DNA from: an uncultured Lachnotalea sp.
Lineage (GTDB): Bacteria > Bacillota > Clostridia > Lachnospirales > Lachnospiraceae
Reading direction: 5' to 3'
DNA: 39,177 bases
Assembly (NCBI GenBank): GCA_947066815.1
Contig: CAMSZT010000030.1
Span: 1-39,177 of the forward strand
A model generated the notes under the pieces. It worked only from the letters and a program-made list of their open reading frames with translations, did not search any database and had not been told where the DNA came from. Below, in pieces: positions 10,376 through 22,395 of the stretch (its first letter is position 1; each line of letters begins with the position of its first letter). The position numbers and the translations under genes were made by a program.

Positions 10376-11071
10376 TTATTTCCTGTAAGACAGCTTCTTT
10401 CCGGCAACTACTGCAGCCGTCACGCCCATGCATGCGATCAGGATCAGAGGCCATACGCTTGCGGTGGCATCACCGGTGTTCGGAGCCTTGTCCAGAGTAC
10501 CGGCGGAACCGGACTGGGTCGGGTTCGTGGGTTCCGCGGGATTGGTGGGCTCTGCGGGATTGGTGGGCTCTGCAGGGTTCGTGGGCTCCGCGGGGTTCGT
10601 GGGCTCATCCGGATTGGTGGGCTCATCGGGGTTCGTAGGCTCCGAGGGATTGGTGGGCTCCTCTTCCTCCGCGATGGCCACAGTTGTCGTTCTGTTGCCC
10701 TCGCCCGTAGCTGTGGGATCTGCAGTACCGGTCCCGCGTTTGATGTTGGTCAGTGTAAAGCTGGCAGTCGATCCGGCCTCTCCGGTCACCTTGCAGGTAT
10801 AAACCGCATTGAAACCAGTGATCATCTGCACTCTGTCAGCCGTGCACAGGCTTAAGGGATCGCTGACACTTTCGATCTCCAGATTCTCTACCGCAACATC
10901 TGCGTCCAGAGAACCGTCCTCTCCGCTAAGTGCTACTGTAAAGGTCACCGTGTCACCCTTCTTTGCAGAACTGCTACTGGGTGTTACTACATCTTCCGGT
11001 GCTGCAAATGCCGTCAGAGACATCATGGCAAGCGCCAGCACCATAGTCAATGAAAGTGCAAATTTTTTCAT
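10376..11071 (-). CDS. Secreted cell-wall-anchored protein with APNTG sorting signal and EPTNPx repeats
   Basis: A 231-residue surface protein. It has a signal peptide (1-24, ending TAFAA), a small beta-type domain (about 25-135, KKGDTVTFTVALSG near the start), eight hexapeptide repeats EPTNP(S/D/A/T) at 138-185 that form a Pro-rich stalk, and a C-terminal sorting signal: APNTG at 196-200, a hydrophobic stretch at 206-224 and the basic tail GKKLSYRK. The start is the ATG at 11069-11071 with GGAGG 11 bases upstream. It sits between a dockerin-like secreted protein and sortase B, all in one direction. The beta domain resembles cohesin- or Ig-like carbohydrate or protein-binding folds by eye only; I cannot assign a ligand. 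Confidence 0.88.
   Translation of the reverse strand: MKKFALSLTMVLALAMMSLTAFAAPEDVVTPSSSSAKKGDTVTFTVALSGEDGSLDADVAVENLEIESVSDPLSLCTADRVQMITGFNAVYTCKVTGEAGSTASFTLTNIKRGTGTADPTATGEGNRTTTVAIAEEEEPTNPSEPTNPDEPTNPDEPTNPAEPTNPAEPTNPAEPTNPAEPTNPTQSGSAGTLDKAPNTGDATASVWPLILIACMGVTAAVVAGKKLSYRK
10517..10660 (-). repeat. Eight tandem 18-bp units coding for EPTNPx
   Basis: Exactly 144 bases, eight units of 18, encode the stalk of the anchored surface protein. Units differ mostly at third codon positions (CCC/CCG, AAC/AAT), so the array is old enough to have diverged but could still change length by slippage. Confidence 0.9.
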
Positions 11072-11147
11072 TTCCTGTCTTTCCTCCAAACTATTATGAT
11101 TGTTTCATTTTGTATTTCTTGCGATATTTTTATGTGGCACGGGGAGT

Positions 11148-13230: not shown

Positions 13231-13256
13231 ATCTCATAAGGTATACCTTTTGAGAA
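13231..13256. promoter_or_regulatory. 26-bp palindrome, site A
   Basis: Runs ATCTCATAAGGTA then TACCTTTTGAGAA, a dyad centred on GGTATACC. It matches site B (13345-13370) at 23 of 26 bases in either orientation. Candidate operator or recombination site. Confidence 0.6.
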
Positions 13257-13344: not shown

Positions 13345-13370
13345 TTCTCAAAAGGTATACTTTTTGAGAA
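13345..13370. promoter_or_regulatory. 26-bp palindrome, site B
   Basis: Runs TTCTCAAAAGGTA then TACTTTTTGAGAA, near-identical to site A. On the plus strand flanking GG/CC extend the stem and TCCTTTTTTA follows, so it could also act as a rho-independent terminator for the short transcript from the promoter at 13300-13328. Confidence 0.6.
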
Positions 13371-13379
13371 TCCTTTTTT

Positions 13380-13470
13380 ATGCGCAAGCCCGCACAGAGG
13401 AATATACCGCAGGAGCAGCGTGCGGGCTGCGCGGCGAGTAGGGGGAGAAGGACCGCTCCCCTACTCGATT
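13380..13470 (+). ncRNA. Structured repeat, unit 1 (candidate RNA element)
   Basis: One copy of a repeat found three more times before tyrS. GCGCAAGCCCGCAC (13382-13395) pairs with GTGCGGGCTGCGC (13420-13432), and CGAGTAGGGG (13435-13444) pairs with CCCCTACTCG (13458-13467). It starts right after the T-run that follows site B. It could be part of a small RNA of about 200 bases running from the promoter near 13300 to the terminator at 13533. Function unknown. Confidence 0.5.
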
Positions 13471-20452: not shown

Positions 20453-20810
20453 AAGCCAATATGCAAAGGCTTTGACGAGAAGAAGTAAGCCGGATCTCCC
20501 GCTTTCCAGAGAGCATCCCTTTGGTGGAAGGATGCAGGCGGCCCCGGTCTGAATACATCTCCCAGCCGCCTGTCTGAACAGATCTCTGTCTTTACCTTAA
20601 TTATAGAAGACAGGGGATCCCACTAGGGCCGGCCGGAAGCGCCCGTTACCGCGCAGGAGGATACGCTTACGGGATCTTCTGCGGATTTTGCCGCAGAGCC
20701 GTTTTTTGTAAGCGCTTCTCCGTGAGAGGAGGTCTGTGAGGGCTTCCTGAATAGAGGTGGTACCGCGGATTCCTGTTCGCCCTCTGTCCGAATGGACAGA
20801 GGGCTTTTTA
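20453..20810 (+). promoter_or_regulatory. Tyrosine T-box riboswitch of tyrS
   Basis: A tRNA-sensing leader that lets transcription continue when uncharged tRNA-Tyr is bound. Visible elements are the AGAGAG motif and the GGTGGAAGG loop in stem I (about 20508-20532), a likely specifier codon TAC at 20554-20556 in GAATACATC, the T-box sequence AGAGGTGGTACCGCGG at 20753-20768, and the terminator at 20779-20809. The specifier matches the gene downstream. The distance from leader end to tyrS start, about 355 bases, is far longer than usual because of inserted repeats. Confidence 0.9.
20779..20809 (+). terminator. T-box terminator
   Basis: GCCCTCTGTCC (20779-20789) and GGACAGAGGGC (20794-20804) form an 11-base stem with loop GAAT, followed by TTTTT. 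The T-box sequence just upstream is the expected competing antiterminator strand. Confidence 0.92.
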
Positions 20811-21097
20811 TGCGCAAGCCCGCACAGAGGAATATGCCGCAGGAGCGGCGTGCAGGCTGCGCGGCGAGTAGGGGAAAAGAACCGCTCCCCTACTCGATCG
20901 TACATGTGCGCATGCCGGTGCAAAGGGAATATGCCGCAGGAGCGGCGTGCGGGCTGCGCGGCGAGTAGGGGAAAAGAACCGCTCCCCTACTCGATCGTAC
21001 ATGTGCGCATGCCGGTGCAGAGGAAATATGCCACCGGAGTGGCGCATCGGCGGCGCGGCGAGTACGGGAAGATAACTCTTCCCTACTCGATCGTACA
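20810..21097 (+). repeat. Three tandem units of a structured repeat (about 95 bp each)
   Basis: Units start at 20810, 20904 and 21001 (period 94 and 97). Each can fold into an outer stem, a small GCCGC-AGGA-GCGGC hairpin and a second hairpin CGAGTAGGGG...CCCCTACTCG. The third unit keeps the folds with changed bases: GCCAC-CGGA-GTGGC (21030-21043), and GCCGGTGC (21011-21018) pairs with GCATCGGC (21044-21051). A fourth copy lies at 13380-13470. The array lies between the T-box terminator and tyrS. Confidence 0.75.
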
Positions 21098-21165: not shown

Positions 21166-22395
21166 ATGAAGATTTACGAAGAACTGCAGGCCAGGGGGCT
21201 GATCGCCCAGGTGACGGACGAACCGGAGATCCGGGACCTCGTCAACAACGGCAACGCCCGGTTTTATATCGGCTTCGACCCCACCGCCGACTCCCTCCAC
21301 GTGGGACATTTCATGGCGCTCTGCCTGATGAAGCGGCTCCAGATGGCGGGAAACAAGCCCATCGTCCTGATCGGCGGCGGTACCGGACATGTGGGGGATC
21401 CCTCCGGCCGGACCGACATGCGGTCCATGATGACCAAAGAGACCATCGACCACAACTGCGAATGCTTCAAAAAGCAGATGGAGCGTTTTATCGAGTTCGG
21501 CCCCGACAAGGCCATCATGGTGAACAATGCGGACTGGCTTTTAAAACTGAATTACGTGGATCTGCTGAGAGAGGTGGGCGGCTGCTTTTCCGTCAACAAC
21601 ATGCTCCGGGCCGAGTGCTACAAGCAGCGCATGGAGAAGGGCTTAAGCTTCCTGGAGTTTAACTACATGATCATGCAGGCCTATGATTTCTACTACCTGC
21701 ATGAACATTACGACTGCAACATGCAGTTCGGCGGCAACGACCAGTGGTCCAACATGCTGGCCGGGACGGAACTGATCCGCAAAAAGACCACGGAGAATGA
21801 GGACGCCTACGCCATGACCATCACCCTCCTCATGAACTCCGAGGGCAAAAAGATGGGCAAGACCGCCAGGGGAGCCGTGTGGCTTGACCCGGAGAAGACT
21901 TCGCCTTTTGAATTTTATCAGTACTGGAGAAACACCGGGGATGCCGACGTGTTAAAATGCATCCGCATGCTGACCTTCCTCCCCCTGGAGGAGATCGATA
22001 AGATGGACAAGTGGGAGGGCAGCCAGCTCAACGAGGCCAAGGAGATCCTCGCCTGGGAGCTGACCGCTCTCGTCCATGGAAAAGACGAGGCCGACAAAGC
22101 AAAGCAGGCTTCCCACGCCCTGTTCGCAGGCGGCGGGGACGAGGAGGGGATGCCCTCCACGGAGCTTTCCGTGGAACAGCTCACGGACGGCGCCATCGGC
22201 ATCCTGGATCTGATGATGGCCTGTAAGCTGGCCCCCTCAAAGAGCGAGGCCAGACGGCTGGTCACCCAGGGCGGCGTCACCGTGGACGGCGAAAAGGCCA
22301 CCCTGGATACCAGGGTGACCGAGGCCGCACTTGTGAACGGCGTAAAGATCCGCAAGGGCAAGAAAGTATATCACAAGGCATTACTGAAAGCTTAA
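21166..22395 (+). CDS. tyrS: Tyrosyl-tRNA synthetase
   Basis: A 409-residue class I synthetase that charges tRNA-Tyr. The HIGH-type motif is H45-V-G-H48, the tyrosine pocket includes [12 protein letters not shown], and the KMSKS-type loop is KMGKT at 229-233. A C-terminal S4 RNA-binding domain (about 340-405, [21 protein letters not shown]) is present, typical of bacterial TyrRS. The ATG follows AGAAAGGAACG. Expression is under a Tyr-specific T-box, and the long repeat array in the leader adds possible further control. Confidence 0.97.

Follow-up and report, generated by a model that had tools for sequence, protein, structure and literature searches.

Structured repeats of about 88 nt behind T-runs and terminators in Lachnospiraceae, probably a non-autonomous mobile element

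The window, by which we mean the whole stretch of DNA analyzed here (39,177 nt), contains four repeat units of about 88 nt each, with TGCGCA at the left end and CTCGAT at the right end. One unit stands alone, and the other three form an array between the terminator of a T-box leader and the start of the downstream gene, which we take to be tyrS. The features are listed below, where R1 is a covariance model built from the units of this genome.

13381-13469, + strand: single unit, TGCGCA...CTCGAT, preceded by a T-run at 13374-13379 (R1 match 13375-13469, 95.1 bits)
20463-20787: T-box leader, Rfam match to RF00230
20780-20803, + strand: terminator hairpin of the tyrS T-box leader
20805-20809: T-run of the tyrS T-box terminator, the insertion site
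20811-20898, + strand: unit 1 of the tyrS array (R1, 107.8 bits)
20812-20862, + strand: hairpin 1 of unit 1, with a 4-bp outer stem, a covarying 9-bp stem (20817-20858), a bulge, a 5-bp stem and a tetraloop
20865-20896, + strand: hairpin 2 of unit 1, CGAGTAGGGG...CCCCTACTCG
20907-20995, + strand: unit 2 of the tyrS array, chimeric and with a damaged main stem (R1, 98.2 bits, a score to be read knowing that unit 2 itself contributed to building R1)
21004-21091, + strand: unit 3 of the tyrS array, where both parts of hairpin 1 carry compensatory changes (R1, 98.5 bits)
21166-22395, + strand: downstream gene, presumably tyrS, 409 aa, with homologs at E <= 1e-80 in 116 of 120 genomes of the family

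Several other repeats were seen in the window. Two near-identical palindromes lie about 115 bases apart, at 13233-13254 (CTCATAAGGTATACCTTTTGAG) and 13347-13368 (CTCAAAAGGTATACTTTTTGAG), with the second occupying the terminator's place ahead of the single unit. They are possibly an operator pair; since the palindrome at 13347-13368 recurs upstream at 13233-13254, it may serve as an operator in addition to, or in place of, a terminator role. A tandem array at 10503-10697 has an 18-nt period, with eight overlapping copies of a 69-nt reference, and falls where a minus-strand ORF of 237 aa is located (10376-11089). A long inverted repeat at 840-929 has 44-nt arms that are 80% complementary, separated by a 2-nt gap.

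The outer stem of the unit pairs GCGC with GCGC over 4 bp, and the bulge of hairpin 1, which is on the 5' side and 10-11 nt long, has the conserved sequence AGAGGAA(N)TAT. Stretches of 116-126 nt containing the four units fold better than their dinucleotide shuffles, with z-scores of -2.8 to -4.5 and with 1, 0, 0 and 0 of 200 shuffles folding as well. Together with the coordinates, this confirms the original prediction that four units have a common fold. One correction concerns the unit at 20907-20995, where the fold is poorly kept and the 9-bp stem has two mismatches and two G-T pairs. The left arm of this unit is of the unit 3 type and the right arm is of the unit 1 type, and the array contains a tandem duplication of 97 nt, the copies of which are 98% identical. 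Unit 2 looks like a recombinant produced by this duplication, and its mixed arms, mismatches and G-T pairs therefore reflect tandem duplication rather than compensation. In the last unit (21004-21091), the paired changes that had been pointed out are present as quoted: GCCGC/GCGGC becomes GCCAC/GTGGC, and the outer pairing GCCCGCAC/GTGCGGGC becomes GCCGGTGC/GCATCGGC, which includes one G-T pair.

Covariation was measured in two alignments. The first consisted of 21 units from the same genome, for which a structure of 29 pairs was tested. Standard pairs made up 94.7% of its pair cells, compared to 88.9% after shuffling, and the covariation score was 0.265, compared to 0.155 for the shuffled alignments, with 0 of 500 shuffles reaching it and with slid controls at 0.091 or below. 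Two-sided changes were found at 10 of the 29 pairs. R1 had 126 matches in 98 further loci, and the larger alignment, with 115 distinct sequences from other loci, showed two-sided changes at all 29 pairs; because it was fitted to the R1 structure, its 93.0% of paired cells (79.6% shuffled) and its covariation score of 0.374 (0.157 shuffled, slid controls at 0.077 or below) should be read with that fit in mind. The covariance-model test that had been proposed for these units thus gives covariation above both shuffles and slid controls, with 21 and with 115 sequences, from copies that are diverse rather than only recent identical duplicates. The strong covariation in the larger alignment means that the point about paired changes was right, and it supports selection on a single-strand structure, be it RNA or single-stranded DNA. 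The units had not been recognized as a known RNA family, and a scan with Rfam 15 agrees: only T-box and tRNA families matched, no family reached its gathering score over any unit, and matches to the units below that score were at chance level.

Covariation alone is not proof of a regulatory RNA, as these units illustrate. The covarying structure and its conserved bulge could indicate that the units act as cis-regulatory or small RNAs after terminator read-through, for example as part of the tyrS leader, given the position of the array between the T-box terminator and tyrS. Relatives argue against such a role, as no full unit is present at the tyrS T-box site in any of the nine examined. The sister species G007, which is 93% identical across the tyrS part of the query, has other sequence and no units behind the T-box terminator. 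The G004 sequence there starts with ATGCACAG and may be a unit remnant, while G002 has another kind of element, whose core matches weakly (E 0.007); by eye, an element similar to that of G002 is present in G075, from another genus. Other, unrelated-looking sequence was seen behind the tyrS T-box T-run in G006 (L189) and G017 (L162). This T-run may be a general insertion hotspot. Since units can sit in leaders like that of tyrS, annotation may be affected.

The pairs themselves also bear on an RNA role. A copy that acts as RNA is expected to tolerate G-U pairs and not A-C mismatches, and 26 control tRNAs from the same loci had a G-U:A-C ratio of 36:0, a generous control since ARAGORN itself favors G-U. 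The ratio in the units was 38:32 for the main stem, 9:5 for the inner stem and 23:56 for the outer stem, where the A-C surplus arises because one column is frequently A-C. Hairpin 2 had 97:36, or 62:33 when one largely G-U column is removed. Based on its ratio, the main stem looks like a structure that is selected in propagating copies and decays post-insertion, so that the copies are read as moving ones that decay later. Hairpin 2 is less clear, and its excess of G-U leaves room for an RNA role there. That excess is in favor of the units being functional RNAs; the main stem ratio, the lack of any Rfam match and the occurrence of units behind terminators of unrelated genes all speak against it, and we consider this explanation improbable.

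Empty orthologous sites were sought by comparing copies in the same genome (G000) with G007. Twenty copies were chosen and 17 upstream flanks were searched, as L030 has no upstream flank and L019 and L020 (tRNA genes) were left out. Fourteen of the 17 flanks paired with G007 loci; L007 and L010 had no G007 partner, and a partial match of L028 was left unused. Both flanks were found in G007 at 11 sites, and only the upstream flank at L011, L012 and L013. Ten of the 11 two-flank sites have no R1 match in G007, and the remaining site has three tandem units of another subtype, located downstream of what we take to be an L31 ribosomal protein gene. Exact junctions could be determined at two sites, L004/L219 and L014/L217. 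The first reads CCTTTTA/TGCGCA...CTCGAT/CCTATC in the occupied state and CCTCTTA/CCTGTC in G007 (slashes mark the junctions), which identifies TGCGCA...CTCGAT as the insert and shows no duplication of the target. The L014/L217 junction agrees, within an uncertainty of at most 2 nt. By eye, L014 stands behind the complement of an apparent ribosome-binding site. On the assumption that the empty sites reflect gain and not precise loss, the same orthologous position is thus seen both filled and empty, with its junctions defined, as is expected of mobile elements in general.

The genome itself has 38 BLAST matches and 48 R1 matches, and R1 matches are present in 8 of 11 genomes of the genus. In the family sample, 13 of 120 genomes (own genome included) had R1 matches, as did 1 of 245 in the class sample (the own genome) under strict filters; these counts are lower bounds, since only 35 and 17 candidates per genome, respectively, were scored. 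A pattern scan of named genomes returned 89 stretches. Among the 80 stretches listed, 56 are titled Lachnospiraceae, Dorea or Acetatifactor, and 16 are titled "uncultured bacterium." The remaining 8 come from other groups and are probably chance matches. The alignment of further loci left out these 8 stretches and the 9 unlisted ones. As the scan pattern fixes much of the bulge and inner stem, conservation there is partly a selection effect in those loci, a bias that does not affect the own-genome and model-found copies. The element has so far been seen in Lachnospiraceae. In genomes with at least three units, 59 of 106 units have their nearest relative in the same genome, compared to a mean of 10.2 and a maximum of 23 under 1000 label shuffles. 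The opposite holds in 3 of 15 genomes (G005, G006 and G010), whose units resemble those of other genomes more than each other, and in two more the resemblance is about equal. Judging from these sequence relationships, the copies appear to be largely lineage-specific expansions. Carriage by phages or plasmids was also considered and was rejected, with no match to the exact core pattern in viral contigs and no blastn match in plasmids or phages.

Across 110 flanks, in which the stretches left out of the alignment were filtered only by requiring a TG start, units are preceded by a T-run and then an A (TTTTA), with T at 81-89% from -5 to -2 and A at 75% at -1. Right flanks begin with T in 77%, so a one-base duplication or a longer end is possible at some sites. 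Copies have one fixed orientation relative to the T-run and, where tandem, are arranged head-to-tail. A terminator hairpin with its T-run, defined as a hairpin that folds at -8 kcal/mol or lower and ends at the T-run, lies directly 5' of 76 of the 93 non-tandem copies, and no such hairpin was detectable at the other 17. The controls were intergenic T4-7A sites, of which 25 of 250 had a hairpin (sampled from 666 in the same loci, with intergenic status set by a rough ORF rule and rough gene calls). This comparison rejects a mere T-run effect as the source of the terminator preference. Exceptions to the terminator site include L014, noted above, and L048, L061/L076 and L083, where no hairpin could be detected at the T-run. 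The comparisons show that the units insert 3' of a T-run, mostly that of an intrinsic terminator.

We therefore favor, as the likely explanation, that the units are a non-autonomous, structure-dependent mobile element of about 88 nt, which inserts in one orientation 3' of a T-run, mostly that of an intrinsic terminator, and is moved by way of its folded strand. The original prediction of a structured RNA element is correct in that the structure is under selection; an RNA element is not the best reading in light of the insertion, the empty sites, the lineage expansion and a main stem with nearly as many A-C as G-U pairs.

Variant forms of the element also occur. Variant B, found in G001, G002, G009, G013, G029 and G119, consists of a 5' palindrome that often continues the upstream T-run, a bulged core hairpin common to both types, and a terminator-like hairpin at the 3' side. 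Among the 16 variant-B copies listed, most follow a T-run:

Variant-B loci: L036, L037, L044, L045, L051, L053, L059, L244, L246, L247, L253, L254, L257, L261, L270, L271

Five own-genome copies (L014, L016, L017, L019 and L022) are interrupted close to the end of hairpin 1 by a nested insertion, about 50 nt long, which replaces part of the 3' arm of this hairpin and could form a hairpin of its own (GGTGCT...AGCACC).

Oriented insertion 3' of a short motif with no target duplication, as in IS200/IS605-type elements, was found here, cleanly at L004/L219 and to within 2 nt at L014/L217. The units might then be miniature IS200/IS605 or REP relatives that a Y1 HUH transposase moves in trans in the form of single-stranded DNA, and the T-rich nature of the motif, the ends that are not inverted, the one-strand hairpins and the head-to-tail tandems fit this as well. 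The distribution of Y1 transposases (PF01797) does not. None was found in the own genome, and PF01797 is present in 3 of the 6 named element-bearing genomes and absent in the other 3, including Acetatifactor muris. Within the genus, the one genome with a full-length domain is G003, where R1 has no match, and G007 and G010 have fragments. There is no association in the family sample, where PF01797 is present in 8 of the 13 genomes with elements and in 60 of the remaining 107. No unit lies within 2.7-5 kb of four Y1-like genes (two in G014, one each in G119 and G090), three of which by eye are flanked by other repeats, so that none of these four genes is flanked by the element; by eye, no transposase-like neighbor is shared among the 68 loci from named genomes. 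There is also almost no space between the cut site and the hairpin feet, with IS608 as the comparison. With no such gene in the host, no association in 120 genomes and no unit near the four Y1-like genes, we rejected a Y1 transposase as the mover, and we think a Y1-dependent element unlikely. The units also lack the terminal inverted repeats and target duplication of a MITE of a DDE transposon, as the unit ends are not inverted copies and there is no duplication at L004/L219. Separately, Y1-like genes of about 245-272 aa at L262, L264 and L265 are flanked by GTACCTGACACC-type and GGGGACGGGG-type repeats, an arrangement that resembles the TIR-flanked transposases described in the accessible text of PMC3733652.

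Group IIC introns insert at intrinsic terminators, according to the accessible text of PMC4424553, and the units could be parasites of such group II (IIC-like) intron machinery, inserted by the intron reverse transcriptase or by reverse splicing. In keeping with this, RVT_1 was found in 6 of the 6 named element-bearing genomes, and of the 7 reverse transcriptase loci scanned, 6 had group II intron RNA. On contig C66 of the own genome (L235), a group II intron that encodes a reverse transcriptase and is truncated where the contig ends sits by eye behind a terminator-like hairpin, 3' of another gene. However, RVT_1 was found in only 1 of 11 genus genomes, though 8 of the 11 carry elements, and nine reverse transcriptase loci searched with R1 gave only chance-level scores, so that a reverse transcriptase was rejected as the mover. 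The window units match no intron ribozyme domain, neither domain V nor the catalytic core. Domain V of group II introns has an invariant triad, and hairpin 1 varies at the pairs corresponding to it. We find it improbable that the units depend on intron machinery.

Neighboring genes did not reveal a mover either. Among ORFs of at least 90 aa, the largest cluster of a recurring neighbor protein covers 7 of the 68 named-genome loci, for which a common neighbor gene was rejected as the mover, and none of the 25 clusters listed for these loci appeared transposase-like by eye. Core matches that have no right end close by were inspected for a long, autonomous form carrying a gene between its two hairpins, and none was seen. 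They proved to be variant-B cores, units that are truncated, damaged or filled with N, or chance matches in unrelated genomes, and this candidate was rejected too. Metagenome assemblies often miss multi-copy mobile genes, so the absence of a mover is weak evidence.

For the mobile element that we favor, one strand, either single-stranded DNA or an RNA copy, would fold into the two hairpins. A trans-acting enzyme would recognize hairpin 1 via its AGAGGAA(N)TAT bulge, and the element would become attached to the T-run of the RNA-like strand, a strand that may lie open at the terminator during pausing of RNA polymerase. Inserted copies would decay afterwards, and we propose that the requirement of the structure for movement is what preserves it. 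A more far-reaching version, which we put forward as a tentative and somewhat doubtful suggestion, is that the units represent a new class of terminator-homing mini-elements. In these, a folded single strand would be recognized through a conserved bulged hairpin that at least two differently built element types have in common (A, the unit with hairpin 2; B, the long palindrome, core and terminator-like hairpin). The enzyme delivering it would belong neither to the Y1 transposases nor to the intron reverse transcriptases, and its target would be the T-run that opens where RNA polymerase terminates.

As a kind, small structured non-autonomous repeats are already known. One of these, bcr1, makes a TTTAT duplication. 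The bcr elements of the Bacillus cereus group (PMC3446304, as far as its accessible text goes) are, like the units, dispersed, structured, MITE-like intergenic repeats in a Gram-positive lineage; the units have no target duplication at the clean site. REP/RAYT systems, as presented in the accessible text of PMC3733652, share with the units that they are short, hairpin-forming, multi-copy and presumed mobile, and CGTC-tagged REPs are also without a known transposase. Unlike the GTAG and CGTC REPs of that text, the unit ends are TGCGCA and CTCGAT with no GTAG or CGTC tag, the site is mostly post-terminator, there are two hairpins with a conserved bulge, and the host has no Y1 gene. The pneumococcal BOX, RUP and SPRITE repeats (PMC10969869) are also small repeats that cluster and insert beside or into one another; they belong to another lineage, and homing to host terminators does not appear in the accessible text of that paper. 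Neither Rfam nor the accessible text of the open-license literature searched has an element that combines homing to terminators with a fixed orientation, a conserved bulged hairpin and the lack of an identified mover, and this literature likewise gives no description of the element. A parallel in site choice is with group IIC introns, which according to the accessible text of PMC4424553 insert behind intrinsic terminators as the units do; the units differ in their length of 88 nt, in matching no ribozyme core and in having no reverse transcriptase. A ribozyme-free 88-nt repeat in Lachnospiraceae that has a deeply covarying fold, the same terminator habit, clean empty sites and no known mover is therefore a compact, testable case for how mobile DNA finds safe sites, possibly via single strands exposed by transcription.
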